The notes below the pieces were generated by a model. The model made no database searches. It was not told where the DNA came from and was given only the letters and a program-made list of their open reading frames with translations. From Candidatus Gastranaerophilales bacterium (GTDB taxonomy: Bacteria; Cyanobacteriota; Vampirovibrionia; Gastranaerophilales; Gastranaerophilaceae), in the NCBI GenBank assembly GCA_947630535.1, contig CANRHZ010000001.1, forward strand, positions 1 to 64,000: 64,000 nucleotides of DNA, read 5' to 3'. Shown here piece by piece: positions 4,296 to 44,298 of the stretch. A program made the position numbers and the translations under genes. Numbering within the stretch: the first letter of the stretch is position 1; every line of letters begins with the position of its first letter.

Positions 4296-4405
4296 AATTT
4301 AATTCAAAAAAGAAAGTGGACACAGAATGGACACGAATAAAAGTTTAAAACGCCTAAAAAAAATAGCAAGGGAGAGATTCGAACTCTCGACCTCACGGGT
4401 ATGAG
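4296..4405 (+). repeat. attachment-site copy 2, containing attL
   Basis: Matches 44187-44298. Bases 4296-4363 look like the int-proximal right end of an earlier relative, and 4364-4405 is the 42-bp core shared with attR (tRNA 3' half through the anticodon). Because phage-type right-end sequence lies outside the present prophage, it is best explained by an earlier element in the same tRNA gene. Confidence 0.8.
4364..4405 (+). other. attL core
   Basis: Forty-two bases identical to 44257-44298, starting TAGCAAGG and ending TATGAG. To the right the sequence diverges (ATTTCTCC against CCGTGCGC at attR). This defines the left prophage boundary. It is the displaced 3' half of the tRNA gene. Confidence 0.88.
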
Positions 4406-4499
4406 ATTTCTCCTTTGCAGGCTTGATGGGTTAAAAACCACCAAAAATCAACAAAACCCACTTCGCTGAATTAAATCCTAATTATATGAATTAACATAT

Positions 4500-4521
4500 A
4501 AAGTGGACACAGAATGGACAC
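4500..4521 (+). promoter_or_regulatory. candidate integrase arm-type site, left end
   Basis: AAAGTGGACACAGAATGGACA occurs here, about 95 bp inside attL, and again at 44205-44225 just inside attR, plus in both old remnants (4104-4125, 4312-4333). Each copy contains GGACA twice. Position and repetition on both sides of the core fit Int arm sites. Function is inferred. Confidence 0.5.
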
Positions 4522-4701
4522 AGAAAATCTTATTTAAATTAAGGTTAAATATACGATTTATAAATTAAATTCAAGGCTATAGCTATTCTGCTGCAAAGGT
4601 TTTGACGATATTTTAAAAGAAAACGTCATAAAACACCGTGCATGAAATGCAGAAGAACGAAAAAACACAACTATTAATATAATATAAAGGAATATAAATA
4701 A

Positions 4702-4920
4702 ATGAATATATTTAATAATAATAATAAATTCATAGATTCAAAATACCCTGCAATAAGTGAAGAACTTATAAATAAATTAATGTATGATTTCCCTAACAGA
4801 TTACCAACAGATAAAATAAGCGAATTTGAATTAGGGATTTTGATAGGACAACAAAGGGTAATCACCAAATTGATAAATGAAAAACAATATAATGAACGAG
4901 ATAATTTATTAGATACTTAA
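4702..4920 (+). CDS. small phage protein, 72 aa
   Basis: First gene of the structural module. The ATG follows AAAGGA at about 10 nt. The protein is hydrophilic with a helical C-terminus (GILIGQQRVITKLINEKQ) and no recognisable domain. Its stop is 1 bp from the next start, so it is co-transcribed with the head genes. It occupies the place of small T7 class II/III genes before the portal. Function unknown. Confidence 0.6.
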   Translation: MNIFNNNNKFIDSKYPAISEELINKLMYDFPNRLPTDKISEFELGILIGQQRVITKLINEKQYNERDNLLDT

Positions 4921-4921
4921 T

Positions 4922-5218
4922 ATGTGGCAATCAATTATATCATCCGTATTACAGGCGGTTCAGTTAGGGGTAGGTGCATATAGCCAGTATCAGGCTATGA
5001 ATCAACAAAGAAAGTTACAAAAGGCACAATCAGATGCAGAGATGAGAGCATTTAATATTGAAAGAGCCAATAAAAATATCTCACAAACAGCAACCATTAT
5101 TAATACTAATAAGGGATTAGATAGAGGCCTAGGAAGTTTAAAAATTCCTATAAAAAATACATCTCAACTTCCTTATGGCGGTACTAATAATGGCGTAGGG
5201 TTAAACGTGCCTCTTTAA
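4922..5218 (+). CDS. small virion/assembly protein, positional analogue of T7 gp7.3
   Basis: A 98-aa protein just upstream of the portal. Residues 1-65 form a long predicted helix (LGVGAYSQYQAMNQQRKLQKAQ), and the C-terminus is glycine/asparagine-rich, ending NNGVGLNVPL. T7 gp7.3 has similar size and position and also a glycine-rich C-terminus. Similarity is by context and composition, not alignment. The first 20 residues could be a weak amphipathic membrane helix. Confidence 0.5.
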   Translation: MWQSIISSVLQAVQLGVGAYSQYQAMNQQRKLQKAQSDAEMRAFNIERANKNISQTATIINTNKGLDRGLGSLKIPIKNTSQLPYGGTNNGVGLNVPL

Positions 5219-5226
5219 GGATTAAA

Positions 5227-6843
5227 ATGGAAAATATATGTAAGGGTAGATTAAAAAGGCTGTATGACAAAATGACAAGTGAACGGCAGCCTTATTTAGA
5301 CAGAGCAAGGGAAGCTATAAAATATTCAATGCCTTCACTTTTAGCTGATGAAGGGAAGCAATCAACTAAAGGTAATCCACAAACCATAATAAGCCCAAAT
5401 CAATCAGTTGTGGCTGATGGAATTAATAATTTATCAAGTAAAGTTGTTATGACTTTACTTCCACCAAATCAGACTTTTTACAAATTTGCTATATCTAAAG
5501 CTGAAATTGCTAAAAATGCAGAGCTGAAAGGTATTGATAGAAGCCAATATGAAAGTGCAATCAATAAGGGCCTTTCAAGCATAGAAGACACCCTGTTAAA
5601 GTATCAGGAAAAGCAAGCTGATAGAGTATGTGCCGGCGAAGCTTTCAAACATTTATACAATACCGGAAATGTCTTATTAGTAGACGTATTCAAAGAAGGA
5701 TTAAAATATTATCCACTTGATAGGTACTGTGTAAAAAGAACATATACAGGCAAGCTTATTAGGGCTATTTCCAAAGAAAGTATAAGCTTTTATGATTTGC
5801 CTAATGATATTCAAAAGGTAATTCTTGAAAAATATGGTTTCAAATCAGATAATGAAACTGATGAAGCTGAAAAAGTTACAGAAAAAGAAGATTTTGAACT
5901 ATATACCGTATGTGAAAAAGTTAAAAACGGGTGGAATGTATATCAAGAGGTTGAAGGTTTTACATTGCCTAATTCAAAAGGGACATATCCGTTGGATGTT
6001 TGTCCTTTTATCCCTTTAAGATATACAAGAATAGATGGTGAAAGCTATGGCAGAAGCCTGATTGAAGAATATTTTGGAGATATAGCTGCTTTAGATGCTT
6101 TATCTTTAGCAGTTAAAGATTCGGCTTTAGCAGCCAGTAAACTTATATTCTTAGTGAATCCGTCAGGCAATACAAAGGTTTCGGATTTAACCTCAACACG
6201 TAATTGTGGATTTTGTGCAGGAAATCCGGAAGATATCCAAATATTACAAATTAATAAATATAACGATTTACAATCTGCCTTAACGGAAATACAACGTCTT
6301 GAATCAAGGCTAAATCGTGTATTTTTAATGAAAGCAGCTATTCAAAGAGATGCTGAAAGAGTTACGGCCGAAGAAATAAAACAGATGGCACAGGACTTAG
6401 AAGAAGCACTAGGAAACCATTATGCACTTATGAGCAATGAGTTTCAAAGAGCTTATGTAAAAATAAAATTCTATCACATGAAAAAGGATAAAGGTGCTAA
6501 TATACCTGACCTTTTGAAAGATGATTCTATAGAATTAACGGTAACTACAGGCTTAGAAGCTTTAGGCAGAAGTTCAGACTTAAACAAATTAACAACATTT
6601 TTAACAATTATGCAAAATTTGGCACCCTCTATTCAAGCATTAGGTGCAAAAATCGAAGCTATAGCACAGTCAGTAGCATTATCAATGAATTTAAGTATTG
6701 ATGGTTATTTTTATTCGGAAGCCGAAAAACAAGAAATGGAAAAAAGGGCTATGGAAAACAACTTAGCAAATAAAGCTATTCCTTATGTTATGAAAACAGC
6801 CAATGATGCTACACAAGATAATACAGGAGTTAATAACACTTAA
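5227..6843 (+). CDS. head-tail connector (portal) protein, T7 gp8-like
   Basis: Forms the dodecameric portal through which DNA is packaged and ejected. The start resembles podoviral portals (CKGRLKRLYDKMTSERQPYLDRAREAI about 5-31). An N-terminal helical region is followed by a core containing LPPNQTFYKF, GNVLLVDV and PFIPLRYTRIDGESYGRSL, and a helical C-terminal part with ITAEEIK-like RVTAEEIKQMAQDLEEALG. The 538-aa length equals that of T7 gp8 (536). RBS AAGGATTAAA. The stop overlaps the next start (TAATG). Confidence 0.92.
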   Translation: MENICKGRLKRLYDKMTSERQPYLDRAREAIKYSMPSLLADEGKQSTKGNPQTIISPNQSVVADGINNLSSKVVMTLLPPNQTFYKFAISKAEIAKNAELKGIDRSQYESAINKGLSSIEDTLLKYQEKQADRVCAGEAFKHLYNTGNVLLVDVFKEGLKYYPLDRYCVKRTYTGKLIRAISKESISFYDLPNDIQKVILEKYGFKSDNETDEAEKVTEKEDFELYTVCEKVKNGWNVYQEVEGFTLPNSKGTYPLDVCPFIPLRYTRIDGESYGRSLIEEYFGDIAALDALSLAVKDSALAASKLIFLVNPSGNTKVSDLTSTRNCGFCAGNPEDIQILQINKYNDLQSALTEIQRLESRLNRVFLMKAAIQRDAERVTAEEIKQMAQDLEEALGNHYALMSNEFQRAYVKIKFYHMKKDKGANIPDLLKDDSIELTVTTGLEALGRSSDLNKLTTFLTIMQNLAPSIQALGAKIEAIAQSVALSMNLSIDGYFYSEAEKQEMEKRAMENNLANKAIPYVMKTANDATQDNTGVNNT

Positions 6844-7484
6844 TGAGCGAAACAGATAATAAAACTTCCCCTGAAACGGCTATACAGGACGAAACAAAAA
6901 ACCTTGATAAAGAACTCGATATTGATACAGATAAAGGAGATGCAAAAACGACTTCTGCATCTATTGATTTTTATACGGAATTACAAAACGAATTTAATGA
7001 AAAAGGGGAAATATCAGAGGAATTTAAACAAGGTTTAAAAGAAAAAGGAATTAATGAAGACCGTCTAAATAGTTATATAGAAGGGTTTGAAGCTAAAAAG
7101 AAAGTCGAACAGCTTGAAGCTAATAAGATTTTAGAAGATATTTATAATTCAGTTGGTGGAGAAAAAGTATTAAATGAAATTAAAGCTTGGGCCTCTAATT
7201 CATTAAGTAAAGAAGAAATTACCGCTATCAACAATATACAAGACCCTTTAGTCATGAAGATGGTATACGGAAATTTGAAGAACAAAATGAATGAATCGTT
7301 AGGTTCGGTTCCGAATTTAATTTCAGGCAATGGTGGCACATCAGATACAAGTTACTTTAAGTCTAAAGCACAGATGTTAGAAGCTATATCTAATCCACGT
7401 TATGCAAAAGACCCTGCTTACAGAGGAGAGGTAAGCAGAAAAATAAGTGCAAGCTATGCACATGGTATTAATTTAAGTATTTAA
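6843..7484 (+). CDS. capsid assembly scaffolding protein, gp9-like
   Basis: 213 aa, strongly acidic, with low-complexity E/D/K composition through residues 1-95 and helices to the end, as in T7-type scaffolds that guide procapsid assembly and are removed before maturation. It lies between portal and capsid, the invariant scaffold position. Residues about 165-205 contain SYFKSKAQMLEAISNPRYAKDPAYR, a pattern common near the C-termini of podoviral scaffolds. The start overlaps the portal stop. Confidence 0.82.
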   Translation: MSETDNKTSPETAIQDETKNLDKELDIDTDKGDAKTTSASIDFYTELQNEFNEKGEISEEFKQGLKEKGINEDRLNSYIEGFEAKKKVEQLEANKILEDIYNSVGGEKVLNEIKAWASNSLSKEEITAINNIQDPLVMKMVYGNLKNKMNESLGSVPNLISGNGGTSDTSYFKSKAQMLEAISNPRYAKDPAYRGEVSRKISASYAHGINLSI

Positions 7485-7500: not shown

Positions 7501-8466
7501 ATGTCAGTAAATGCAAATTCATTCGCTAGGTTAGGACAGGCAAACTTTTCCGGTGATACAGAAAAATTATTTAAAGAATTTTTTGTACCCGAACTGATTA
7601 CAGCTTTTGAAACAAACCGCAAAATGGTTAATTACGTACGTAAGAAAACCATCACTAATGCTAAATCAGCAGCATTCCCTGTTCTTGGTACCACAGGAGC
7701 AAAATATGTAGGTGTTGGTGAAAGCCTTTTGGGAAATCAAAAGATTGCACACAACGAAATCATAATCAATGTTGACCCCTTCTTGGTATCAGATGTCCTC
7801 ATTCACGATTTTGATGTAAAACTTCAAGCTTATGAAGATAGGGCTGAAATCTGTACTGAAATGGGCCGTGCCTTAGCTGATACAGAAGACCAACAACTTG
7901 CACAGGTAGGTGTACTGGCTGCAAGGGTAGAAAAAGGTATTGTAGAAGGTAGAGCAGGTGGTTCTGTTCTTAAACGAGGGGAAACCGTAGCTACAGATTC
8001 TAGTGCATTAATTGAAGCCTTAACTTTGGCTAATGTTGAGTTGGATAATAAAAAAGTACCGGAAGCAGACAGAGCAGCTTTTGTAAGGCCTCTACAGTAT
8101 GCAAGGCTTGCACAAAACGCTAATGTTATAAATAAAGATATCGGTGGCGGTTCTTTTGAATTTGGTTTAACAGGTTCAATTGGTGGTCTACAAATAGTTA
8201 AAACCACAAGTCTGCCTTCAACCAATATCAAACAATCAGAAGATACAACTAAACCTAATAATATTTATTATGGTGATTTCACAAATACTGTTGCTCTTGT
8301 TATGAATAAAGGTGCTGTAGGTACAGTAAGTGTTCAAGGTTTAATTACCGAAACTAAATGGATGCTTGAATACCTTGGTCATTTATGCGTAGCACGTATT
8401 CTCCAAGGACATGGTATCTTAAGACCGGATTGTGCGGTTGAAATTTCATCTGCTGCATCCGAATAA
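7501..8466 (+). CDS. major capsid protein, T7 gp10A-like
   Basis: HK97-fold shell protein, 321 aa. Family landmarks: LFLK-like EKLFKEFFVPELITAF (22-37), KSAAFPVLG (59-67), VDPFLVSDVLIHDFDVKL (96-113) and MGRALADTEDQQL. A strong RBS (AAAGGAG) lies 12 nt before the ATG. A hairpin terminator follows at 8506-8531, as in T7. No sign of a gp10B-type frameshift extension was seen. Confidence 0.93.
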   Translation: MSVNANSFARLGQANFSGDTEKLFKEFFVPELITAFETNRKMVNYVRKKTITNAKSAAFPVLGTTGAKYVGVGESLLGNQKIAHNEIIINVDPFLVSDVLIHDFDVKLQAYEDRAEICTEMGRALADTEDQQLAQVGVLAARVEKGIVEGRAGGSVLKRGETVATDSSALIEALTLANVELDNKKVPEADRAAFVRPLQYARLAQNANVINKDIGGGSFEFGLTGSIGGLQIVKTTSLPSTNIKQSEDTTKPNNIYYGDFTNTVALVMNKGAVGTVSVQGLITETKWMLEYLGHLCVARILQGHGILRPDCAVEISSAASE

Positions 8467-8505
8467 GAATAATATAAATTTAACATACGAATATATTAAA
8501 TGTGT

Positions 8506-8531
8506 AGGTGGGGTTTAATTCCCCACCTTTT
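8506..8531 (+). terminator. rho-independent terminator after the capsid gene
   Basis: AGGTGGGG (8506-8513), a 7-nt loop TTTAATT, CCCCACCT (8521-8528), then TTTT. It lies 40 bp after the capsid stop. T7 has its T-phi class terminator in exactly this place, where partial read-through lowers tail-gene expression. The following gene must start downstream of it. Confidence 0.88.
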
Positions 8532-8541
8532 GGAAGGACAA

Positions 8542-9099
8542 ATGCTAACAAAATTAGATGTTATAAACACAATGTTATCTTGTGCAGACCACATGCCTAT
8601 CAATACATTAGAAGAAATGCAAGATTCGTTTACTTATACGGCATTAAGTATATTAAATGAAGAAGTTAAAACATTTCAGGCAGAGGGTTGGAATTTTAAC
8701 ACGGAACGTAATTTTACATTAACTCCCGATACTACAGGGGTTATAAAAATACCTGATAACATTTATTCTGTAAAATTCCCTCAAAGATGTACTTATGTTA
8801 TAAGAGATGGCAAAATCTACAATAAGGTTCTACATACATTTAAAATAGAAAAACCTTTAAAATGTGATGTTGTATACGTCCATCCTTTTGAGGAATTACC
8901 ACCTGCTGCACAGTTATATATACAAATGGCTGCAAGTTATAAATTCACAAAACGTGTATTAGGTACGCAGACAAATTGCATTTACACACAAGAAGATTTA
9001 ATAAAGGCGAGAGCTGCTTTTATACAAGATGAACTTAATACCGGAAATTATAACTATAACACATACAGAATTGAGGGAAGGGTGAGGGATTCGATATAA
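8542..9099 (+). CDS. tail tubular protein A, T7 gp11-like
   Basis: 185 aa; gatekeeper-type protein joining portal and nozzle. It starts MLTKLDVINTML, the usual beginning of the family, and has VIKIPDNIYSVKF and ALSILNEEVKTFQAEGWNFN. I chose the ATG at 8542 over an in-frame ATG at 8500, because the latter lies before the terminator stem and would translate it, whereas GGAAGGA precedes 8542. The stop overlaps the next start (TAATG). Confidence 0.9.
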   Translation: MLTKLDVINTMLSCADHMPINTLEEMQDSFTYTALSILNEEVKTFQAEGWNFNTERNFTLTPDTTGVIKIPDNIYSVKFPQRCTYVIRDGKIYNKVLHTFKIEKPLKCDVVYVHPFEELPPAAQLYIQMAASYKFTKRVLGTQTNCIYTQEDLIKARAAFIQDELNTGNYNYNTYRIEGRVRDSI

Positions 9100-11408
9100 T
9101 GCTTGCACGTGGTAATATTTCAAGTTTTAAAGATGGTGTAAGTAAGCAAGCTGATAAGCTTATGTTTAAATCTAATCTTAAACAGCTTAAAAATGCCATA
9201 CCTAGTCTTTTATGGGGAACCATAAGACGTCCGCCTATGCAGCATATTGCAAAACTTACATCTACCTTAACAACACACCCTTTTATACATACAGTAGTTA
9301 AAGAAAATGAAAAGTATTGCATAGTATTAGATGGAAGTACAATAAGAATTTTTGACCTTGAAGGAAATGAAAAAACTGTAAAATCATATATTACAGAAGA
9401 TTTCAGCTATATAAAAACCGATAACCCATTAAAAGATTTATACGCTACCACCATAAATGATTATACATTTATTTTAAACAGGAAAAAAATACCTGTTATG
9501 GATAATAGTATAAAAAATTCATCTTATAATTCAGTAGCATTAGTTTTCGTGCAAAAAGGCGCTTATGAAACTACTTATAAAATAACCATAAATGGTACAC
9601 ATATAGCTCAATATACATCCGCAGCTTTAACAGCAAATGTTGAAGTAACACCTATAACAATTGCATCAAACCTTGAAAAGAACTTAAAACAACTTCTTGA
9701 TGAAACAGATTGGGAAGTAAACAGGATAGGAGCTGTTATTGCAATAACTAAAAAAGATGGCACATCATTTACAATTGAAACATCAGATACAGATGCAAAT
9801 ACAGATATAATTACGCTTTATAAAACAACAAGCACTTTCACAAGTTTACCAGTAACAGCTCCTAATGGTTTTATAATAAAAATTTCAGGCTATGAAGCTG
9901 ATTCATCAGATGATTATTTTGTAGAGTTTAAAACTAAAGATAATATTGAATTTGGAGAAGGTTATTGGGAAGAATGTTCAGACCCTACACTTCCTTATAA
10001 AATAGATGCTTCTACAATGCCTCATTTACTTGTAAGGGAAGAAGACGGTAGTTTTGTATTTAAGGAAGGTGTATGGGGAGAAAGATATGCAGGTGATGAA
10101 AAATCGGCACCATCTCCATCATTCATAAATAATAAAATTGAAAAAATATCGACACATAAAGGAAGGCTTGTTATTTTATCAAACGGAAATTTTCTAGCTT
10201 CAAGCACTTCGGATATTTTTTCTTTCTTTAAAACGACTGTAAGAGAAAATTTAGATTCAGACCCTATTGATATAACATCTAATGTAGGTATGACCGAATT
10301 GAAGCACTGTTTGCCATTTAATGGTGAACTGTTAACATTTTCAGAACTGGCATGTTTCACAATTTCAGGTGGTAATGTATTCTCAAATTCTACAATAAGT
10401 TGTGATTTAACAATGCAGTATGACTGTTCTTCAAAATGCGAACCTATTTCTTCAAGAAAAGGTGGCTTCTTTGTTTTTGAAAATGGTCAATATTCAGGTG
10501 TTAGGGATATTTATATAGATTCTACTTACAATATAAATGCAAAGGATATCACAGAACAAGTCCCTTGTTTCTTGCCTAAAAACATTTATAAAATAATCGG
10601 TAGCACAGTAAATAATATGGCTTTATTCCTATCAACTGATACATTAAATAAAATATACGTTTACAGTTATTATTTAGATGCACAGGATGAAACCAAACAA
10701 GCTGCTTGGCATGAATGGGAATTTGAAAATGCTAAAATTAGAGGTGGATATTTTAATCAAAACATTCTGTATCTGTATATTGAGTATTCAGACGGATTAT
10801 ATCTAAATAAGTTAGATTTCACACCCAAGTTAAAAGATTTTAATTTAGATTTCCAATTATATATCGACCGTAAGGTATACTATAAAAATTTAACACCAAA
10901 TAATGGTATAACAACATTAACTTTACCTTATATAAACGACAGTAACATTCAAGTATATGATGAAAAAGGTTTTCCGGTGGAATTTTCGATTTCAGGTGTA
11001 ACTGTAACGATTTCAGGAAACTATGAGAAATTAATTGTAGGAAACACTTATGAAACATTAATGGAGCTTCCTGTTTTATATTACAGACAACGTATTTATA
11101 ATACGGAATATATGGTTGATGGGCTATTAATGGTAAAAGATATAACACTAGGTTATAATAACACGGCTTATTTTAAAGTTGAAGTTTTACCCTTATATCC
11201 TTCAATGCAGCCTTCTACTTATATATTTACATCTTCAATTACAGGTCAAGTTTATACGGATGTTATACAGTTATTAAATGGTACTTTTGTATTTCCCGTT
11301 AGATGTAGAAATGAAGAAGTGACAATAAAAATAATAAATGATTCACACTTACCGTCTGAAATATTAGGACTGGACTGGATAGGCGAATTTACAAGGAGAG
11401 GTGAGTAA
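9099..11408 (+). CDS. tail tubular protein B (nozzle), T7 gp12-like
   Basis: 769 aa, the size of T7 gp12 (794). The N-terminus SSFKDGVSKQADKLMFKSNLKQLKNAIPSLLWGTIRRPPM-type region (residues about 6-48) is typical of nozzle proteins that begin by describing gene-product interaction with the tail-tube A ring. The rest is beta-rich. Residues about 345-375 (KGRLVILSNGNFLASSTSDIF) match the conserved SGRLGFLS-type motif. Overlaps neighbours by 1 nt on both sides. Confidence 0.9.
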   Translation: MLARGNISSFKDGVSKQADKLMFKSNLKQLKNAIPSLLWGTIRRPPMQHIAKLTSTLTTHPFIHTVVKENEKYCIVLDGSTIRIFDLEGNEKTVKSYITEDFSYIKTDNPLKDLYATTINDYTFILNRKKIPVMDNSIKNSSYNSVALVFVQKGAYETTYKITINGTHIAQYTSAALTANVEVTPITIASNLEKNLKQLLDETDWEVNRIGAVIAITKKDGTSFTIETSDTDANTDIITLYKTTSTFTSLPVTAPNGFIIKISGYEADSSDDYFVEFKTKDNIEFGEGYWEECSDPTLPYKIDASTMPHLLVREEDGSFVFKEGVWGERYAGDEKSAPSPSFINNKIEKISTHKGRLVILSNGNFLASSTSDIFSFFKTTVRENLDSDPIDITSNVGMTELKHCLPFNGELLTFSELACFTISGGNVFSNSTISCDLTMQYDCSSKCEPISSRKGGFFVFENGQYSGVRDIYIDSTYNINAKDITEQVPCFLPKNIYKIIGSTVNNMALFLSTDTLNKIYVYSYYLDAQDETKQAAWHEWEFENAKIRGGYFNQNILYLYIEYSDGLYLNKLDFTPKLKDFNLDFQLYIDRKVYYKNLTPNNGITTLTLPYINDSNIQVYDEKGFPVEFSISGVTVTISGNYEKLIVGNTYETLMELPVLYYRQRIYNTEYMVDGLLMVKDITLGYNNTAYFKVEVLPLYPSMQPSTYIFTSSITGQVYTDVIQLLNGTFVFPVRCRNEEVTIKIINDSHLPSEILGLDWIGEFTRRGE

Positions 11409-11995
11409 TGCAAAATAATACAAGCAAAACTTCTAAGATTTCACCTATATTCAAATCTTTAAGCAATGTTGTTGTAGGTATTCAAAAAGCCTCATCTATT
11501 AAAGATTACACAAGAACACAATTAGCAAACATATCTTCTGCTATTGATAACTTTGATTCGGGTGCTGATACATTATATAAACGCTATCAACAAGAAAAAG
11601 AACTTGCAGCTTATAATTTACAAGCAAGTATTTTAGATAATTTAAAAAGAAAAGGCATAGTTCAAACAGCAGCAGCGGAATCAAATGTAAGTGGTAATTC
11701 AATTACATCTTTGTTTAGGGCATATGATAGAATAAGTGCCGTTAATAAATACATGGCAGCTTATAATATGCAGAATTTAACCGACCAATTCAATGAGAAC
11801 TTGGAAGGGCTAAAAGTAAGAGCTTTAAATGCTGTTTATGATATAAAACCTTATAATTATAGCTATAACAACAATTATGAATTTGATATAAATAGTTTAA
11901 AAACAGCATATAGAGAGTTAAAGAATATAAACTGGAAAAAAGGCTTAAGGATAGATACAAGGGAAGTTTTAGAGGGAGATACTAAGAATGCCTGA
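11408..11995 (+). CDS. internal virion protein, gp14-like
   Basis: 195 aa, matching T7 gp14 (196 aa) in size and place directly after the nozzle gene. Mostly helical, with YQQEKELAAYNLQASILDN and the alanine-rich GIVQTAAAESNVSGNSI. In T7, gp14 is ejected and forms the outer-membrane pore. Function is assigned by position and helical pattern. Overlaps the next gene by 8 nt. Confidence 0.72.
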   Translation: MQNNTSKTSKISPIFKSLSNVVVGIQKASSIKDYTRTQLANISSAIDNFDSGADTLYKRYQQEKELAAYNLQASILDNLKRKGIVQTAAAESNVSGNSITSLFRAYDRISAVNKYMAAYNMQNLTDQFNENLEGLKVRALNAVYDIKPYNYSYNNNYEFDINSLKTAYRELKNINWKKGLRIDTREVLEGDTKNA

Positions 11996-14009
11996 TAATA
12001 AAAGAGTAACACCTGATGTAGGTGATACGATTAGCCCTGATGTAATAGCTTCTCCGGTAGATAAAAGGCGTCAATTTTCTATAAACCCTTTAGATGATGT
12101 AAAAAGAAAAGCTATTGTTGATACTTTAGCAGACATAGGTAATGGTGTTCAAGTATTAGATGAAACGCTTAAAGAAAATGCTATATATGATGCTTTTAAA
12201 CTTTATCAAGACACTAATGGCAATGATAACAAGAAAGATTGGCGTGTAGCTTCTAAACAATTAGAAGGAATGGCCAAATTTAATCCTTATATACAAGATG
12301 AATATAAAAAACTTGTTGCTAAAGATGTTATAAATGAAGGGATTCTTAAATTAAATGCCAACACTAAAGGTTATACTCTATCAAATAAAGAGTATGAAGA
12401 TTTTATACAGGATATAAAAAATAAAACACAAGTTAAACTAAATCTTTTAAACCTTCAACCTGAACATTATATAGAGCCTTTTAAGGAGTTTGAAAATAGC
12501 ATACAATCGGCCCGCAATAGTTATGTAGTTAAAAATGCTGAATATAATTATAAAAATCTGTTAAATAAGGAAATTTATGATTTTAATACAAGGGCTGTCA
12601 ATGCTATATTAAAAGCGGATTCAAAAGAGTTAAAATTAAAAGCTTTTGACACGGAATGGCAGAATACGGTTAATAAATGCAATGATTTAGGTATACCTGA
12701 TACAGATATAGCAGCCTTGCTTCAAGCGGGTGTTCAAAACTTTGTTTTAGAAAACGCATCAATAATGGATTCTAAGACAATGTTACTTGCTTTTGCAAAT
12801 CTAAAAGTTAATGATAAATCAATAAGTGAACTAATTCCGGATTTTAATACCAAAGCAGCCTTATTAATTAAAGAAGCTAAAAGAGCTGATTATAATGATA
12901 AATATTTAACATATCAACAAACACAGTTGGAAGATGATATAAATTATAAAAATGCGCTAGGTGAATTTATTGAAGGTTATAGTAATAATCCTAACATGGA
13001 TTCTGGTGAGGTTAAGGGATTAGCGCTAGAGCTTATTAGAAAATATGGTATTAAAGCTAATGGTTTTAATTTCTTATCACAAGCTGCAAGCCTTGATAAC
13101 TATATAAATAAATCACCCACAGAAAATTCAAAAATTGTTGAAGGTTTAACTTTGAAATCTATTACCGGTGAATTATCTATTGAGGATGTTGTAGAGGAGT
13201 TAAGGGCCGGAAATATAAAACCTAGTACGGCAAATACCTTTTACACTAAACTTAAAAACGGCGAAAATAACGCCAAAAGTGAAGCTATAGAACAAGTAAA
13301 ATATATAGCTAAAATGGTTGAAGATGCCAAAAAGAATAAAAGTATAGGCACAAAAAACAGTGAAATTGATAGTTCTTTTATAAGTCAACTGGAAACTATA
13401 AAAAATAAAGTCATGATAAATGAACTTGACCCTATAAAAGCTGCAAATATGGCTAAAGAACTTGTTAGAGCTTATACAGCTTATTCTAAATTTGAAAAAC
13501 AGCCACGTAAAATAAGTGACCTTTTAAAACCTGTATATTTAAAAGAATTGCCTTCACCTACATATAATGAAGCAGATGGTGAAAAGTTTTTTAAAAGAAA
13601 AGGCCTAATAAAGGAAGATTGGGGAAAAGTATTTTATGATATAACATCTTTACCTCAAAAAAGTAGAACTTTAAAAGGCCAGACAGGACAACATTCGGGT
13701 ACAGATATAGCTGCTCCTATGGGTGCACGTTTATATAACCCTTGGGATGGTGCATTTATTAAATATGCCGGTTTTGAAGCTACAATGGGAAATTTTGCCA
13801 TAATTGAATATAAAGGTAAAGGTGCTATACGTATAATGCACTTACAAAATTCAATTGAGAATCGTATTGGGACTTACATTGCAAAAGGTGAAAATTTTGC
13901 AAGAATAGGTAGCACTGGAAGGGCAACAGGGCCACATTTACATATAGAGTTTTATGATAAAAATATGTTCCCGATAACACCAATGCAATTTGATACTTTA
14001 ATGAAATAG
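11988..14009 (+). CDS. internal virion protein with C-terminal M23 peptidase
   Basis: 673 aa. Residues 1-530 are helical, like the ejected protein gp15. Residues about 555-665 form an M23 (LytM-type) zinc metallopeptidase: His569 and Asp573 in HSGTD, the IMHLQNS strand, and HLHIE with His650 and His652. Such domains cut peptidoglycan cross-links. T7 instead places a transglycosylase in gp16, so here cell-wall opening during ejection has probably moved to this protein. It follows the gp14-like gene and precedes the 1800-aa protein. Confidence 0.85.
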   Translation: MPDNKRVTPDVGDTISPDVIASPVDKRRQFSINPLDDVKRKAIVDTLADIGNGVQVLDETLKENAIYDAFKLYQDTNGNDNKKDWRVASKQLEGMAKFNPYIQDEYKKLVAKDVINEGILKLNANTKGYTLSNKEYEDFIQDIKNKTQVKLNLLNLQPEHYIEPFKEFENSIQSARNSYVVKNAEYNYKNLLNKEIYDFNTRAVNAILKADSKELKLKAFDTEWQNTVNKCNDLGIPDTDIAALLQAGVQNFVLENASIMDSKTMLLAFANLKVNDKSISELIPDFNTKAALLIKEAKRADYNDKYLTYQQTQLEDDINYKNALGEFIEGYSNNPNMDSGEVKGLALELIRKYGIKANGFNFLSQAASLDNYINKSPTENSKIVEGLTLKSITGELSIEDVVEELRAGNIKPSTANTFYTKLKNGENNAKSEAIEQVKYIAKMVEDAKKNKSIGTKNSEIDSSFISQLETIKNKVMINELDPIKAANMAKELVRAYTAYSKFEKQPRKISDLLKPVYLKELPSPTYNEADGEKFFKRKGLIKEDWGKVFYDITSLPQKSRTLKGQTGQHSGTDIAAPMGARLYNPWDGAFIKYAGFEATMGNFAIIEYKGKGAIRIMHLQNSIENRIGTYIAKGENFARIGSTGRATGPHLHIEFYDKNMFPITPMQFDTLMK

Positions 14010-29165: not shown

Positions 29166-29217
29166 TATACATATAAAGAAAAGAAAATAAATATAATTAA
29201 TAAAAAAGGAGCAATAA

Positions 29218-31957: not shown

Positions 31958-32170
31958 ATGACAAAGCATTATTGTAGTACTTGTGGCAGATGCCAAAACA
32001 GTTTATGTAGTTTTTTTCAAAGGCATATTGAACCAGATTACAACAGATGTGCAATGCACACGGATTTTAATAAGTCCTATGCCGTTTATAAATCACCTTC
32101 TAAAGAAGAACTGGAAGCACTAATAGAAGCTAATGAAGATAATAAAGAAGTTATAACCAACAAAAAATAA
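31958..32170 (+). CDS. small cysteine-rich protein in Cro position
   Basis: 70 aa. Five cysteines and two histidines in the first 35 residues (YCSTCGRCQNSLCSFF, then CAMH) suggest a zinc-binding knuckle. The acidic tail is EELEALIEANEDN. RBS AAAGGAG. First rightward gene opposite the repressor, hence immediate-early after induction. Not a recognisable Cro helix-turn-helix; role unknown. Confidence 0.65.
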   Translation: MTKHYCSTCGRCQNSLCSFFQRHIEPDYNRCAMHTDFNKSYAVYKSPSKEELEALIEANEDNKEVITNKK

Positions 32171-36287: not shown

Positions 36288-36711
36288 AGAGCAGGTAGGC
36301 TTAAAATACGGATTCAGGTCAGGGCTTGAAGCGGAAATTGCTAATCAGTTCATAAAAGAAGGAATAGACCCTTTATATGAAAAATACAAACTTCCATACA
36401 GGGTTGAAAAAGATTGCAAATATACCCCTGATTTTCCGGTAAGTCAGAGAATAATTATTGAAACAAAAGGCAGATTTTTAACATCCGATAGGATGAAAAT
36501 GCTTCTTATAAAGAAACAATACCCCAATTTAGATATTAGGTTTATCTTTACAAATTCCAAAGCAAAGATAAGTAAAAAATCAAAAACCACTTATGCTGCT
36601 TGGTGTATACATAATGGATTTAAGTATGCGGATAAAACCGTTCCTGTTGATTGGATAAAGGAAATTAAAGATGAAATACAAAATAATAAAACAAATAACA
36701 AAGCCCTCTAA
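36268..36711 (+). CDS. endonuclease I, Holliday-junction resolvase, T7 gp3-like
   Basis: About 147 aa, the size of T7 gp3 (149). Motifs line up: FRSGLE (catalytic Glu), YTPDF (Asp) and IETKGR (Glu, Lys), spaced as in the T7 enzyme, followed by SDRMKMLLIKKQYPNLDIRFIF and the C-terminal VPVDWIKEI. It cuts branched concatemers and host DNA. I prefer the ATG at 36268 (GGAAG upstream); an in-frame ATG at 36250 would add six residues. Overlaps the SSB 3' end. Confidence 0.93.
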   Translation: MKKKISKEQVGLKYGFRSGLEAEIANQFIKEGIDPLYEKYKLPYRVEKDCKYTPDFPVSQRIIIETKGRFLTSDRMKMLLIKKQYPNLDIRFIFTNSKAKISKKSKTTYAAWCIHNGFKYADKTVPVDWIKEIKDEIQNNKTNNKAL

Positions 36712-36973
36712 CTGTAAAACAACTGATGAACTTGATGCTTGTCAATATTACCATATAAAAAGGGCTAATTTTTCATATATAGTTTCATGCGCTGATTATT
36801 GTGCGGTAAATATTCTGCCTACAAGTCTTTTACATCAATATACCGTACAAATGCCACTAAAAGAATTTATTGAAGCCCGTATTGAAGATGGATGTGAGGT
36901 ATATGGTTTCAATGATGTTAAGGAGCTATTAGAATTTACTTTAAAGGAAGATAGCGGTGCGACAAGCTCATAA
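36671..36973 (+). CDS. phage protein, 100 aa
   Basis: Sits between endonuclease I and primase-helicase, overlapping both (by 41 and 17 nt). In T7 this position holds the gp3.5 amidase/RNA polymerase inhibitor. This protein has no amidase zinc ligands, although it has several cysteines (CADYC, CEVYG). Unknown role. Confidence 0.55.
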   Translation: MKYKIIKQITKPSNCKTTDELDACQYYHIKRANFSYIVSCADYCAVNILPTSLLHQYTVQMPLKEFIEARIEDGCEVYGFNDVKELLEFTLKEDSGATSS

Positions 36974-38567
36974 ACCTTGTCCGGATTGTGGAAGTTCTGA
37001 TGCACTTTTAATTAATGAAGATGGCTCTACCAAGTGCTTTTCTTGTGGAAAATTTACACCTACTGATGGTGAAAACTTAAGTACGGCAAATGACACTTAT
37101 GATATAGACTTTCTAAAAGGAAGGGCAATGTCCCTTCCCTCTAGGAAAATTTTACAAGATACCTGTAAAAGATATAAATATATGACATCCGCTTTTAATG
37201 GTCACCCTTGTGAAATTGCTACTTATAGAGATTTAAAAGGCAATCCTGTATTTCAAAAAGTACGTTTCACAGATGAAAAAAGGTTTATGATAATTGGTAA
37301 ATATAAGCCGGTTTTATATGGTATGCACCTTTTTTCAGGACAAACAAAGAAACTTATTATAACGGAAGGCGAAATAGACTGTTTATCCGTAAGCCAAGTT
37401 GTTAAGGGGTACCCTGTTGTGTCTGTTCCGTTAGGAGCGGGAAACGCTAAAGCTGCCATAAAAGAGAATTTACAATGGATAGAATCCTTTGATGAAGTTG
37501 TTTTATGCTTTGATATGGATGAAGCCGGCGAAAAAGCTATAAAAGAATGCGCACCTTTAATCAGTGTCGGTAAGTGTAAAATAATGAAGCTCCCGCTAAA
37601 AGACCCTAACGAGATGTTAAAAGCCGGACAGGAAGCTGATTTATATAAAGCCACTTGGAATGGCTTAACATACAGACCTGATGGCATTGTTTCTAAAGAA
37701 GAACTTTGGAGTGAAGTTCAAAAACCAGTTGAATATGGACTAAGCTATCCTTGGAAAGGTCTTACCAAACTCACATACGGTATCAGAAAAAGCGAAATTG
37801 TTGTATTTGGGGCCGGAACAGGTATGGGGAAAACAGAGTTCTTTAAAGAAATAGAACACCATTTAATAAATACACATAAGAAGAAAGTAGGTATAATTCA
37901 CCTTGAAGAAATAGCAAGAGATACGGCCTTAGGCCTTATGGCAAAACATTGCGGAATTAAGTTTCATGTACCGGATGCAAAATATTCAAAGCAAGTTTTT
38001 AAGAAGGCCTTTGATGAAGTTATAGGAAGTGATTTACCTGTAATTTACAACGGTTATGGTACCACAGACTTTGATGTTATTGAAAACATTATACGTTATA
38101 TGGCAAAAGGATGTGATTGTGAATATATCTTTTTCGACCATATAACGGCAATGGCTGATGGGGTATCATCAACATCTGATGTAAACCAAAGAATGCGTAA
38201 TGTTGTATCAAAACTAGCCTCTTTAACAAGGGAATTAAACATAGGACTGTTTATTATTTCACACTTAAGGAAAACGGAAGGAAAATTACCACATGAAGAA
38301 GGTGGCAGGGTTCATCTTGATGATTTATATGGAGCAGCAGCTTTAAAACAATGGATTTCTTTTGCCTTTGGCTTAGAAAGAAACCAACAATCAGAAGATG
38401 AAGATATAAGGCATACTACCACACTTCGTTGTCTTAAAGATAGATATACAGGCCTTTCAACCGGAAAAACCTTATCTATTAAATATGAAAAAGATACAGG
38501 GCTGCTAAAAGAAGTATCTGAAACTTATGAAGAAAAAACGGAACAAATTGATGAGGAGCCATTTTAA
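36957..38567 (+). CDS. primase-helicase, T7 gp4-like
   Basis: 536 aa (T7 gp4 is 566). Residues 8-30 are a zinc ribbon (Cys8, 11, 27, 30). TOPRIM primase elements are ITEGEID (Glu137) and CFDMDEAG (Asp186, Asp188). The RecA-type helicase has Walker A GAGTGMGKT (285-293), HLEE (Glu317), Walker B FFDH (Asp394), ISH (His436) and the arginine-finger-like GLERNQQ (472-478). The tail is acidic. GTG start 36957 with AAGGAAG upstream, overlapping the previous gene. Unwinds DNA and makes primers. Confidence 0.96.
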   Translation: MRQAHKPCPDCGSSDALLINEDGSTKCFSCGKFTPTDGENLSTANDTYDIDFLKGRAMSLPSRKILQDTCKRYKYMTSAFNGHPCEIATYRDLKGNPVFQKVRFTDEKRFMIIGKYKPVLYGMHLFSGQTKKLIITEGEIDCLSVSQVVKGYPVVSVPLGAGNAKAAIKENLQWIESFDEVVLCFDMDEAGEKAIKECAPLISVGKCKIMKLPLKDPNEMLKAGQEADLYKATWNGLTYRPDGIVSKEELWSEVQKPVEYGLSYPWKGLTKLTYGIRKSEIVVFGAGTGMGKTEFFKEIEHHLINTHKKKVGIIHLEEIARDTALGLMAKHCGIKFHVPDAKYSKQVFKKAFDEVIGSDLPVIYNGYGTTDFDVIENIIRYMAKGCDCEYIFFDHITAMADGVSSTSDVNQRMRNVVSKLASLTRELNIGLFIISHLRKTEGKLPHEEGGRVHLDDLYGAAALKQWISFAFGLERNQQSEDEDIRHTTTLRCLKDRYTGLSTGKTLSIKYEKDTGLLKEVSETYEEKTEQIDEEPF

Positions 38568-38862: not shown

Positions 38863-40809
38863 ATGGCTTTAATATTTGATATTGAAACCAATGGCCTATT
38901 AAATACTTTAGATATAATACATTCTCTTGTTATTTATGATACTGAAAAAGACTGTTATTATGACTGTACGGATAACGACCCGAATAAGCTTACAATTAAA
39001 GAAGGCCTTGAAATTTTATCAGGGGCCCCATTAATTGTAGGACATAATATAATAGGGTTTGACCTTCCTGCTATTCAGAAATTATACCCCACTTTTAAAG
39101 TAAATGATAAAATTTTTGATACATTAATAGCAGCAAAATTAATATACCCTGAAATAGAACTTATAGACTATGCTCTTTACAGGAAAAAGGTGTTGCCAAA
39201 AGAATTAATTGGTAAATATTCACTTGAATCTTTTGGATATCGACTGAAAGAGCTAAAAGGCACTTATTGCAAGGAAGAAAATACTTGGGAAAAATGGAAG
39301 CCTGAAATGCAAGTCTATTGCAAACAGGATGTTAAAGTTACTACAAAACTGTATTATAAACTTTTAGATGCTAATGTAAAACTTGATGTTTTAGAATTGG
39401 AACAAAAATTTGCAAAAATAATATCAAGGCAGGAACAAAGAGGTGTATTATTCGATAAAGACAGGGCCGTTGAATTAGTAAGTGAGCTGCTTGAAGAACA
39501 GAAGAAAATTTATTTAAAATTACAAGAAGTTTTTAAACCAAAAATAATTGAAGAAACTTTTATACCTAAAGTTAATAACTCAAAAAAGGGATATATAAAA
39601 GGCACTCCTTTCATAAAACAAATAGAGGTTCCTTTTAATCCTAATTCAAATCAAATGGTGGCTTCACGTTTGATTGAAAAATACAACTGGAAACCTTTAG
39701 AATTTACCGAAACAGGTCTACCAAAAGTAAGTGAAACAATATTATCAGAACTTCCATATAAAGAGGTTCCGCTTTTACTTCAATATATAAAAATAGCTAA
39801 AGTTATTGGATATATTGCAGAAGGTAAAAACGCTTGGTTGAAGAAAGTGGAAAATGACGGAGCTATAAGAGGGAAGGTGGACACACTCGGTACAGTGACA
39901 GGAAGGTGTTCCCATTATAGCCCTAACCTAGCTCAAACACCTGCGGTTGAAAAGGATGGTGACAACAATATTTTATTCGGGATTGATGGCGGGTATGGCT
40001 ATGAATGCAGGGCATTATTTAAAGCAAGAGAAGGATTTAAACTTGTAGGATGTGATGCTTCGGGTTTAGAATTAAGAGATTTAGCTCATTACATTAATTC
40101 TCCTTCTTATACCAAAGAAATCTTATCAGGGGACATTCATACAAAAAACCAACATCTAGCAGGTTTAAGTACAAGGGCTAAAGCAAAGAAATTTATCTAT
40201 GCTTTTAATTATGGTGCAGGTGATGAAAAGATAGGATATATGGCAGGAGTAAGCGAAAAAGAAGCCTTGCAATATAAAATAGATAAAAGACGTGAAGCCG
40301 TTATAAAACGTATTAAAAAAGCCGGTAAAGTTCCTACCAATGAGCTTGTGAATCATATTTTAAAAGGGATGGATACAAAGGCGAAGTTCTTTAAAGGCCT
40401 TCCCGAATTAGCTAATTTAATGGAAAAAGTTAAAGATAAGGCTAAAACACGTGGGTATTTATATGGAATTGACAAACGAAAATTAAAAGTAAGGGAAGTA
40501 TATAAAAGTTTAAATGTACTTTTACAATCAGCAGGTGCAACCGTAATGAAAAAAGCATTAATTATTTTATATGATGAATGCGTACAAAAAGGTTGGATAA
40601 ATGATTCTTTTTATATAAATCCTTATGATAAAGTATATTTTGTTTTAAACATCCATGATGAATTTCAAGCGGAAGTTAAGCCCGAAATAGTTGAAGAATA
40701 TATGATAATGGCCGTAAAGGCCATTGAAAAAGCTGGCGATTATTTTAGTTTTAAATGCCCATTAACAGGTGAAGCTAAAGAAGGCTTTAATTGGGCTGAA
40801 ACCCATTAG
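38863..40809 (+). CDS. family A DNA polymerase with 3'-5' exonuclease, T7 gp5-like
   Basis: 648 aa (T7 gp5 is 704). Exonuclease: DIE at 6-8, HNIIGFD (Asp67), YCKQDV (Asp156). Polymerase: motif A CDASGLELRDLAH (Asp398), motif B RAKAKKFIYAFNYGAG with Tyr446 at the position of T7 Tyr526, and motif C NIHDEF (Asp599, Glu600). All active-site residues are intact. A thioredoxin-binding insertion is not obvious by eye. Replicates phage DNA with the SSB and helicase. Confidence 0.96.
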   Translation: MALIFDIETNGLLNTLDIIHSLVIYDTEKDCYYDCTDNDPNKLTIKEGLEILSGAPLIVGHNIIGFDLPAIQKLYPTFKVNDKIFDTLIAAKLIYPEIELIDYALYRKKVLPKELIGKYSLESFGYRLKELKGTYCKEENTWEKWKPEMQVYCKQDVKVTTKLYYKLLDANVKLDVLELEQKFAKIISRQEQRGVLFDKDRAVELVSELLEEQKKIYLKLQEVFKPKIIEETFIPKVNNSKKGYIKGTPFIKQIEVPFNPNSNQMVASRLIEKYNWKPLEFTETGLPKVSETILSELPYKEVPLLLQYIKIAKVIGYIAEGKNAWLKKVENDGAIRGKVDTLGTVTGRCSHYSPNLAQTPAVEKDGDNNILFGIDGGYGYECRALFKAREGFKLVGCDASGLELRDLAHYINSPSYTKEILSGDIHTKNQHLAGLSTRAKAKKFIYAFNYGAGDEKIGYMAGVSEKEALQYKIDKRREAVIKRIKKAGKVPTNELVNHILKGMDTKAKFFKGLPELANLMEKVKDKAKTRGYLYGIDKRKLKVREVYKSLNVLLQSAGATVMKKALIILYDECVQKGWINDSFYINPYDKVYFVLNIHDEFQAEVKPEIVEEYMIMAVKAIEKAGDYFSFKCPLTGEAKEGFNWAETH

Positions 40810-40822: not shown

Positions 40823-41173
40823 ATTATAAATTTCAAAAAATGCAGTTGTTGTAAAAAATGGCTGCCACTGGAATATTTTGCAGAAAAAACTCACCGTTGC
40901 CGTATCTGCAACAGAGATAATGATTGGAAAAGGCGTTATGGATTAGAAGCGGATACTTTTTTTGCTATGTTAAAAGACCAAGACAATAAATGCCCTATTT
41001 GTAAAAAAGAATTTACCAGTATGCCACATGTTGACCATAACCACGATACAGGTGAAATAAGAGGATTGCTTTGTGCAACCTGTAACAGAAACTTAGGTAT
41101 ATATGAAAAGGAACGTATTATAGACGGAATGATACTTCGTTATGAAGAATATTTGAAAAGGTTTAAAAAATGA
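40823..41173 (+). CDS. recombination endonuclease VII (His-Me nuclease)
   Basis: About 116 aa from the proposed start. Zinc cysteine pairs CSCC and CRIC/CPIC with the catalytic core HVDHNHDTGEIRGLLC place it in the T4 endonuclease VII family, which resolves branched DNA. No ATG, GTG or TTG in this frame has a ribosome binding site; AGAGG at 40813-40817 points to ATT at 40823. The only other in-frame candidate is a GTG at 40769, inside the polymerase gene, with no RBS. It gives the phage a second resolvase beside endonuclease I. Confidence 0.85.
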   Translation: MINFKKCSCCKKWLPLEYFAEKTHRCRICNRDNDWKRRYGLEADTFFAMLKDQDNKCPICKKEFTSMPHVDHNHDTGEIRGLLCATCNRNLGIYEKERIIDGMILRYEEYLKRFKK

Positions 41174-41958
41174 CACGAACAGTTTTAATTGATGGGGACA
41201 TATTGGTATATAAGGCTGCATTGGTTTCGCAAGAAGAATTTGAAGAAAATATAAGCAATGATGATGATGAATGGCTCTTGCAGATAATTAAATTTGCTCA
41301 TAAAAACAAAGCTATAAAATATATAGAAGAAACAATAGCCAGAATTTGTAAACAAACAAAAAGTCAAAATTGTGCAATAGCATTATCAGATAAAGACTTA
41401 AATTTTAGAAAGCAGATAAATCCTGATTATAAAGGTAACAGGAAAAAGCCTAAACCCTTATTACATGGATTTTTAAGGGAATATTTTAAAAAAGCAGGGT
41501 ATAAAGTTTATGAAAAGCCTTCACTTGAAGGTGATGATGTAATAGGTATTTTAGCAACGTCCGATAAAATAATTAAAGGGGATAAAGTTATATGGTCTTT
41601 TGACAAGGATTTCAAAACTATCCCTTGTAAATTTAGAAAAGAAAATCCTGATGGCTCCCACGAAAGTAAAATTATTTCGGAAGAAGAAGCCGATTGGAAT
41701 TTTATGTATCAGACATTAATAGGTGATTCGACTGATGGCTATAAAGGATGCAAAGGCATAGGTGATAAAACCGCAAGAAAGCTTTTAGGTGAAGTTGGGG
41801 AAAAATCTTTGATGCAGATGTGGGATGTAGTTAAAGAGCAATATGTTAAAGCAGGTTTAAGTGTTGAAGATGCACTTTTAAATGCCAGAATGGCCCGTAT
41901 TTTAAGAGTATCCGATTATGATTTTAAAAATAAAAAGGTTAAATTATGGCAGATATAA
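41170..41958 (+). CDS. 5'-3' exonuclease, T7 gp6-like
   Basis: 262 aa (T7 gp6 is 300). FEN/PIN-like acid cluster: DGD at 8-10, LEGDDVIG (about 118-125), SFDKDFK (about 142), GDSTDG (about 180), then the helix-hairpin CKGIGDKTARKLLG. It removes primers and processes host DNA. It overlaps endonuclease VII by 4 nt and the next gene by 13 nt. Confidence 0.92.
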   Translation: MTRTVLIDGDILVYKAALVSQEEFEENISNDDDEWLLQIIKFAHKNKAIKYIEETIARICKQTKSQNCAIALSDKDLNFRKQINPDYKGNRKKPKPLLHGFLREYFKKAGYKVYEKPSLEGDDVIGILATSDKIIKGDKVIWSFDKDFKTIPCKFRKENPDGSHESKIISEEEADWNFMYQTLIGDSTDGYKGCKGIGDKTARKLLGEVGEKSLMQMWDVVKEQYVKAGLSVEDALLNARMARILRVSDYDFKNKKVKLWQI

Positions 41959-42926: not shown

Positions 42927-42978
42927 GAGATAACAATTAAAATGTAACAAAAAATTCATGAAGATAGGTAACAATTTT

Positions 42979-43152
42979 ATGATAGGTTTAATTAGCTTAA
43001 AGGAATTTGCGAAAAGATTAAATGTTCCTGTAAGCACGATTAGGACATGGAAACAGAGGGGTAATATCCCCTCTTTTCTCTTTAAAAAAGTTGGTGGAAC
43101 AATCTTTGTTAGAGAAAATAAAATTTCAGAATGGGTTGACAGTGACGCATGA
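42979..43152 (+). CDS. excisionase (Xis), MerR-type helix-turn-helix
   Basis: 57 aa winged helix-turn-helix (LKEFAKRLNVPVSTIRTWKQ, then GGTIFVRENKISEWV), the layout of AlpA/Xis directionality factors. Start chosen at ATG 42979 because AGGTAAC precedes it; an in-frame ATG at 42958 would add seven residues. It is 17 bp upstream of int, so the two are co-expressed. TGTAACAAA at 42943-42951 resembles the operator half-sites near the repressor. Confidence 0.82.
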   Translation: MIGLISLKEFAKRLNVPVSTIRTWKQRGNIPSFLFKKVGGTIFVRENKISEWVDSDA

Positions 43153-43169
43153 GGTGGTGAAATTTAATT

Positions 43170-44186
43170 ATGACTATCTCAAAAAGGAATGGAAAATATT
43201 ACTGTCGTTTTCAGCTGAATGGAGAAAGACACCATAAATTATGTTCCGGTGCAGCATCCATAAAAGAAGCTGAAAAAATTGAAAATGCTTTCAAGTATAA
43301 GCTTCAACAACAGCAGAATGGGGTAATACCGAAAGAGGAGAAAAATTTACCATTATACAAATTAAAACAGATATATTTAGCTTATTCAGAAACAAACAAT
43401 AGGAATAGAAATTTTGAACATAACAAATATTCGGTAAATATTATAATAGGTTATTTTGGTGAGAAAAGGATAGTTCAGAGTATTTTACCAAAGCATGTGG
43501 AAGCATTCAAGGAATGGTTGAGGGTTAAAAGAGGTCTTAAGAATGCCAGTATAAATAGATATTTGGAGATATTGAGCAAAATGTTTAACCTTGGAATAGA
43601 TAATGGCAGTTTATCAGTAAATCCTGTATCGAAGGTAAAGAAGTTGCAAGAGGATAATCACAAGGTAAGGTTTTTGACCGCAGAAGAAGAAGCAAGATTA
43701 TATAAGGCATTGCCTGAATTTCTCAAGCCAATAGTGACTACAGCTTTACACACAGGAATGAGAAAAGGAGAGATTTTGAATCTTAAATGGAACAACATTG
43801 ATTTTGAATATGGGTTTATAGAGTTGTTAGAAACAAAATCGGGCAAAGCAAGAAAGATTCCGATATCGGAGAAATTGATGGAAATTTTCAATAAATTATA
43901 TATGGATGCGAGAAGTGAATATGTGTTTATAAATCCTGAAACGGGTTTACCTTATGTAGATATAAAGAAATCGTTCAATAAAGCAAAAGAAGTGGCGGGA
44001 ATAAAAGATTTCAGGTTTCACGATTTAAGGCATACGGTGGCAACTCGGTTGGTTGAAAAAGGTATAGATTTATTAGTAGTAATGGATATATTGGGGCACA
44101 GTAAGATAGAAACCACAATGAGATATGCACATCCGATACCAAAAAGAAAAAGTGATGCAATTAGTGTTCTTAATTCATACAATTAG
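43170..44186 (+). CDS. int: phage integrase (tyrosine recombinase)
   Basis: 338 aa. Residues 1-55 form an AP2-like arm-binding domain (RNGKYYCRFQLNGERHHK), about 60-160 the core-binding domain, and about 165-338 the catalytic domain with Arg198, Lys223, His284-x-x-Arg287, His310 and Tyr319, all present. The stop is 70 bp from the attR core. Its C-terminal codons are duplicated in the old remnant at 4067. It catalyses integration into and, with Xis, excision from the tRNA gene. Confidence 0.95.
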   Translation: MTISKRNGKYYCRFQLNGERHHKLCSGAASIKEAEKIENAFKYKLQQQQNGVIPKEEKNLPLYKLKQIYLAYSETNNRNRNFEHNKYSVNIIIGYFGEKRIVQSILPKHVEAFKEWLRVKRGLKNASINRYLEILSKMFNLGIDNGSLSVNPVSKVKKLQEDNHKVRFLTAEEEARLYKALPEFLKPIVTTALHTGMRKGEILNLKWNNIDFEYGFIELLETKSGKARKIPISEKLMEIFNKLYMDARSEYVFINPETGLPYVDIKKSFNKAKEVAGIKDFRFHDLRHTVATRLVEKGIDLLVVMDILGHSKIETTMRYAHPIPKRKSDAISVLNSYN

Positions 44187-44203
44187 AATTTAATTCAAAA
44201 AAA

Positions 44204-44225
44204 GAAAGTGGACACAGAATGGACA
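44204..44225 (+). promoter_or_regulatory. candidate integrase arm-type site, right end
   Basis: Copy of the GTGGACACAGAATGGACA element, 18 bp after the int stop and 31 bp from the attR core. The same element lies inside attL at 4500-4521. Presence on both sides suggests Int arm binding. Confidence 0.5.
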
Positions 44226-44256
44226 TGAATAAAAGTTTAAAACGCCTAAAAAAAAA

Positions 44257-44298
44257 TAGCAAGGGAGAGATTCGAACTCTCGACCTCACGGGTATGAG
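44257..44298 (+). other. attR core
   Basis: 42 bases identical to 4364-4405. They supply the 3' half of the tRNA gene, so integration leaves a complete tRNA at this end. Confidence 0.88.

Follow-up and report, generated by a model that had tools for sequence, protein, structure and literature searches.

A T7-type prophage with a CI-like repressor and two tyrosine recombinases at a tRNA gene of a gut Gastranaerophilales bacterium

The T7 programme is usually regarded as purely lytic, and the question raised by the locus described here is how a complete set of T7-type genes comes to lie between two att sites in a bacterial chromosome and by what means it could be kept silent there. The host belongs to the non-photosynthetic sister group of cyanobacteria. 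The window, i.e. the whole stretch of 64,000 nucleotides that was analysed, opens contig C1 in a 1.85-Mb MAG of a gut Gastranaerophilales bacterium, in which a 39.9-kb T7-type prophage (positions 4356–44298) is inserted at a tRNA gene. Judged from its sequence, this element is in all likelihood a complete, probably functional temperate T7-type prophage.

Gene calls were made by PHROG and Pfam searches. The virion module has the T7 order, running from the portal, scaffold and capsid proteins through the tail tubes, internal virion proteins, fibre, spike and lysin to TerS and TerL. It is followed by the early region, the RNA polymerase (RNAP), SSB, endonuclease I, primase/helicase, DNA polymerase, exonuclease, an Xis-like HTH_17 protein and the integrase. 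Replication and virion genes keep the T7 order, except that the insertion point between exonuclease and portal has permuted it circularly. The genes are listed below, with PHROG/Pfam as the basis of assignment unless another is given.

5227–6843, forward strand: portal
6843–7484, forward strand: scaffold
7501–8466, forward strand: major capsid protein (MCP)
8500–9099, forward strand: tail tube A
9099–11408, forward strand: tail tube B
11408–11995, forward strand: internal virion protein, gp14-like
11988–14009, forward strand: internal virion protein in the gp15 position, with M23 peptidase
14023–19425, forward strand: internal virion protein of 1800 aa in the gp16 position (by position and homologues in relatives)
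19419–20111, forward strand: tail fibre N-terminal protein
20111–23143, forward strand: tail spike with F5/8 C domains
24152–24571, forward strand: M15 endolysin
24571–24819, forward strand: TerS
24813–26507, forward strand: TerL
32416–34854, forward strand: T7-type RNA polymerase (PHROG E 5e-249)
35655–36287, forward strand: SSB, gp2.5-like
36250–36711, forward strand: endonuclease I
36957–38567, forward strand: primase/helicase
38863–40809, forward strand: DNA polymerase
41170–41958, forward strand: exonuclease
42958–43152, forward strand: Xis-like HTH_17 protein

Against the PDB, the polymerase gives an alignment with T7 RNAP over its length (E about 1e-118), and it carries the T7-aligned catalytic residues D505, K572, Y580 and D745. 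All recognisable core genes are open and full length, and ribosome-binding motifs are found at several gene starts. The early genes (27054–29802) gave no informative match in Pfam or PADLOC. Searches of the prophage for phage-RNAP promoters by repeated 20-mers and by EM motif finding yielded none and recovered only Shine-Dalgarno sites.

The prophage is bounded by an exact repeat of 50 bp at a tRNA gene beside an integrase gene, an arrangement that cannot be attributed to chance. The attachment region comprises the following elements.

4356–4405: attL core, 50-bp exact repeat of attR
4503–4520, forward strand: candidate integrase arm-type repeat GTGGACACAGAATGGACA in the phage left arm, with an equivalent in G233 and in the attP of L149
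44208–44225, forward strand: candidate integrase arm-type repeat in the phage right arm, exact copy of the 18-mer
44249–44298: attR core, overlapping the 3' half of tRNA-Met
44256–44331, reverse strand: tRNA-Met (CAT), the integration target, left intact

All four exact copies of the 18-mer are at att sites, whereas 0.01 copies would be expected if up to three mismatches were allowed. The sister prophage of G233 lies at a tRNA-Glu gene and has a different core of 53 bp with the same motif on either side, and that of G212 lies at tRNA-Val with a 46-bp core and a variant arm motif, TGGGTACACAATGGGTACACA. Each of the three complete att pairs in the clade is therefore at a different tRNA gene (Met, Glu, Val); in G272, the integrase end is at tRNA-Met. 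Since the motif tracks the phage and not the target tRNA, it is read as an integrase arm-binding site, and the repeats are probably arm sites of the integrase.

The tRNA-Met/hisB neighbourhood recurs in a genus relative, G130, where it is free of phage genes; the neighbours on its left side are not those of the window, which makes it a prophage-free site and not the exact pre-integration sequence. Conservation of the tRNA-Met/hisB flank within the genus spoke against an assembly artefact or contamination of the window, and both were rejected. In the viral contig L149 (RNAP 53% identical), the Int1 gene is followed by an unbroken attP, complete with its two arms, and then by the portal module. 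As this contig is uninterrupted across attP, the excised state exists in the lineage; for the copy in the window, the contig is no direct evidence. Elsewhere in the window, a gene cluster at 55400–58900 has a G+C content of 0.41–0.42, above that of its surroundings, and a minus-strand ORF of 1517 aa (50185–54738) has no NCBIfam match.

The preliminary description of this DNA had already proposed an intact T7 gene order, opened by the att site between exonuclease and portal, in a Melainabacteria-type host. The order is borne out by PHROG and Pfam with the core genes open, the opening lies where it was placed, and the att pair, the prophage-free locus of G130 and the sister prophages in other tRNA genes agree with a prophage of such a host. 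The Int and Xis genes reported beside the att site are found there (starting at 43170 and 42958). The repeats had been given as tRNA-derived and 42 bp long; their tRNA origin holds, and the exact length is 50 bp. The repressor, the second recombinase, the arm repeats and the older att remnant at 4062–4179 were absent from that description.

The sequence to the left of attL indicates that the site has been used before.

4062–4179, forward strand: what is left of an earlier related prophage (end of the integrase gene, arm repeat and degenerate core), 97% identical to 44162–44279
4270–4355, forward strand: second phage-type right arm left of attL, with an arm repeat at 4316–4333

The first of these copies spans the last integrase codons, the arm repeat and the degraded core. 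Within 3500–4060 lie a Fic-like fragment and one with resemblance to the 1800-aa virion protein, so that the pieces between 3500 and 4355 appear to be left over from earlier related prophages at this tRNA gene. The contigs of four genus relatives end at or near tRNA-Met, and in G088 (L061) the tRNA-Met core is present twice, on either side of a different element of about 12 kb. tRNA-Met is a used integration site in the genus.

In the RNAP tree, a phylogeny that the preliminary description had called for, the window and eleven other elements form one clade of 12 members (support 100/100), apart from ProddE, Pasto, LUZ100, the pelagiphages and the Vampirovibrionales elements. Chromosomal copies of these prophages are present in several MAGs. 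Across the host family, PF00940 is matched in 6 of 288 genomes, of which five belong to the window's group; the sixth, G247, carries a different, more distant phage. Weaker PF00940 matches occur in eight genomes of one other family in the phylum (L251–L258). In a wide scan of genomes, T7-type polymerases turned up in contigs of many phyla, in line with a published account of T7-related prophages as widespread among Gram-negative bacteria (PMC10134795). Gene arrangement varies within the clade: in the G212 prophage (G212:C3, L023–L025) the whole structural module is inverted, with its portal end toward the RNAP gene, and the cargo includes glycan-synthesis and ABC-transporter genes and a recombinase fragment. 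L075 carries glycosyltransferase cargo, and the TerL gene of L151 is split in two.

The sisters bear on whether the window prophage might be defective or domesticated, i.e. fixed in the chromosome with its capacity for excision or virion formation lost. Inactivating mutations in core genes of sister genomes, which had been named beforehand, together with a lack of attP junctions, as evidence against a living prophage, are represented by the frameshifted TerL of G233 (L026–L028). The frameshift could be a MAG error; as it stands, not every copy is intact and some sisters may be decaying. The older related copy beside attL is a remnant, and no attP junction of the window phage, as excision would leave, is present in its own assembly. 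The window copy itself, however, has full-length core genes with ribosome-binding motifs, intact catalytic residues in RNAP, CI and both integrases, and two intact att sites, and its being defective is unlikely.

Between the early region and the RNAP gene lies a repressor gene of the S24/LexA type, which points to a means of holding a functional T7-type prophage silent.

30778–31071, reverse strand: candidate lysogenic conversion gene for a small protein that probably has a signal peptide, located downstream of CI and overlapping it
31064–31771, reverse strand: CI repressor (HTH and S24 peptidase), with Ala-Gly site and Ser/Lys dyad
31812–31839, forward strand: candidate host sigma-70 promoter of the RNAP operon (GTTACA-16-AATAAT, TG before the -10), 41 bp from the CI start

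The residues for self-cleavage of CI (AAAG, GDSM and the Lys) are all present. The gene is divergent from that of RNAP and from a small Cys-rich ORF (31958–32170) conserved in several relatives. Two relatives have short membrane proteins at the site matching 30778–31071, which are likewise candidate lysogenic conversion genes. Three tandem 16-bp repeats, CCTTTGCACGTCTGTT, are found at 30720–30767 between Int2 and the CI operon, and G233 and G126 have other short repeat arrays in this position. The CI proteins of G212 and L075 are without the Ala-Gly site and the catalytic Ser.

The window promoter is a weak match individually, but its position equals that of strong promoters in the relatives: G233, L149 and L076 have TTGACA-17-TATAAT (or one change from it) facing RNAP, at a distance of 37–46 bp from the start of CI. 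A promoter and the palindrome AACAAWTTGTT are common to the CI–RNAP region of G233 and the region that follows its TerL gene (local score 60, against 37 for the best of 300 shuffles), and these two early control regions suggest an OL/OR-like arrangement. The equivalent comparison in the window gave a score of 29, reached by 68 of 300 shuffles, and resolved no CI operator there; it also fails in most relatives other than G233. Control of the RNAP promoter by CI, as predicted here, is well supported by position and partly by sequence. The window thus resembles the lambda CI/OL–OR switch in having a CI with S24 self-cleavage residues and a divergent early promoter, and sister G233 adds the pair of early control regions with a common operator-like palindrome. 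The difference is in what is controlled, which is the Cro/N operon in lambda and an operon encoding a T7-type RNAP, with putative operators, in the window.

We infer CI binding, SOS cleavage and the ensuing cascade from gene layout, residues and the promoter positions of relatives, all of which are directly observed. Int1 would integrate the phage at attP and, together with the Xis-like protein, excise it. CI made in the lysogen would repress the host-sigma-70 promoter of the RNAP operon, and repression of this one polymerase would keep the whole T7 cascade silent because the middle and late genes depend on it. Upon DNA damage, RecA-assisted self-cleavage of CI would allow RNAP to be made, with excision, replication, packaging and lysis to follow.

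The presence of CI also bears on a reading in which an essentially lytic phage integrates only transiently, without true lysogeny. T7-like cyanophages, which belong to the same phage group and have the same int/tRNA logic, integrate without forming stable lysogens, and no repressor genes were found in them (PMC8776855). The window clade, by contrast, has CI/S24 divergent from RNAP throughout, and its prophages reside in chromosomes of several MAGs; a merely transient association is very improbable.

The clade has two tyrosine recombinases.

29804–30613, forward strand: Int2, second tyrosine recombinase (269 aa), core-binding and catalytic domains only
43170–44186, forward strand: Int1, tyrosine integrase (338 aa) adjoining attR

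The start of the RNAP gene and Int1 are 10.8 kb apart, with Int1 on the downstream side. Int2 is located upstream of RNAP and away from the att site, between the early genes and CI, i.e. in the RNAP-proximal place where other temperate T7-like phages carry their sole integrase, and is about 70 N-terminal residues shorter than Int1. The two form separate clades in the tree (support 100/98 for Int1 and 100/100 for Int2). Throughout the clade, CI, Int1 and Int2 are present as far as the contigs extend, the one exception being L075, which is without Int2. The catalytic R, K, HxxR, H and Y are intact in both window proteins and in nearly all relatives, with single departures in the Int2 of L072 and the Int1 of L075.

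The place of Int2, and the loss of the stretch where an arm-binding domain would be, are what a vestigial copy of an ancestral RNAP-proximal integrase would show, with no second functional recombinase system. On the other hand, Int2 forms a single orthologous clade with seven members, is missing only from L075 among the contigs that cover its usual site, and has kept its catalytic residues, unlike a decaying gene. A vestige is thus possible but doubtful, and Int2 is most likely a specialised descendant kept in the place of the only integrase of other temperate T7-like phages. It is a quite improbable suggestion that Int2 is a dedicated recombinase acting near the ends of virion DNA, for example by Cre-like joining or resolving of a terminally redundant linear genome before Int1 integrates it or by inverting a genome segment, so that lysogeny would need two recombinases. 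An inversion-switch test for inverted repeats between the Int2 region and the att arms gave scores not above shuffles in the window and G212 and a marginal inverted score in G233. A single-sequence fold of Int2 (mean pLDDT 39) was too poor for use.

How this prophage relates to known temperate T7-like phages depends on which part is compared. The single-subunit RNAP with its catalytic residues and the conserved gene order, both present in the window, place it with the T7-like phages (Autographiviridae sensu lato), a likeness drawn from genes alone that extends to a T7-type TerL and tail proteins. A close counterpart is the Desulfovibrio phage ProddE (MZ666938, Autographiviridae), which has the T7 gene set, an S24-type CI divergent from RNAP, xis and a tyrosine integrase. 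Unlike the window, ProddE has a single integrase, upstream of RNAP, and none between exonuclease and portal. Its RNAP, about 34% identical, groups with Mucispirillum and Desulfovibrio elements, separately from the window clade (100/100). Phages of the MarR–int–RNAP type (LUZ100, Pasto, HTVC200P, P-SSP7) also combine the T7 gene set with a tyrosine integrase, and tRNA-derived att sites as in the window are reported for the cyanophages and pelagiphages among them. In this type, the integrase is upstream of RNAP and accompanied by a MarR/HTH regulator, whereas the att integrase of the window follows the exonuclease, the repressor is CI/S24 and a second recombinase is present; no MarR-like regulator was matched among the window's early ORFs.

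The T7-type prophages of Vampirovibrionales (L077, L084, L110) share with the window melainabacterial hosts and the T7 gene set, and a recombinase pair is present in each of the two regions that were read completely. They differ in that the structural module is inverted head-to-head with the RNAP module, the RNAP is 39% identical and no CI homologue was detected. T7-type genomes are normally on one strand, and a head-to-head arrangement is unusual. This arrangement, with the structural module opposite RNAP, is seen in L077, L084, L110, L241–L246 and L164, a set made up of Vampirovibrionales prophages, prophages of cyanobacterium-labelled MAGs and one viral contig. The recombinase pair of the two fully read regions is convergent, and G289, of the same set, has a tRNA-Val repeat at both ends.

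A complete temperate T7-type phage in such a host had been thought little described, and a search of an open-access library turned up no paper on T7-like prophages of Gastranaerophilales. Temperate T7-like phages as such are not new, as LUZ100, Pasto and the pelagiphages already exist as isolates, and neither is the CI idea, because ProddE already combines an S24 CI repressor with RNAP. What is new in the window prophage is the host lineage, the Xis–Int1/attP module between exonuclease and portal, and the two conserved recombinases.

T7-like cyanophages, reported to insert into the chromosome without lysogeny and to lack a repressor gene (PMC8776855), provide an instructive contrast with this host from the sister lineage. 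As a group of prophages with different att sites, the clade is a set in which repressor–RNAP control can be tested. The arrangement described here suggests that a T7 programme can be placed under a lambda-style repressor through one gene, that of the phage RNAP.
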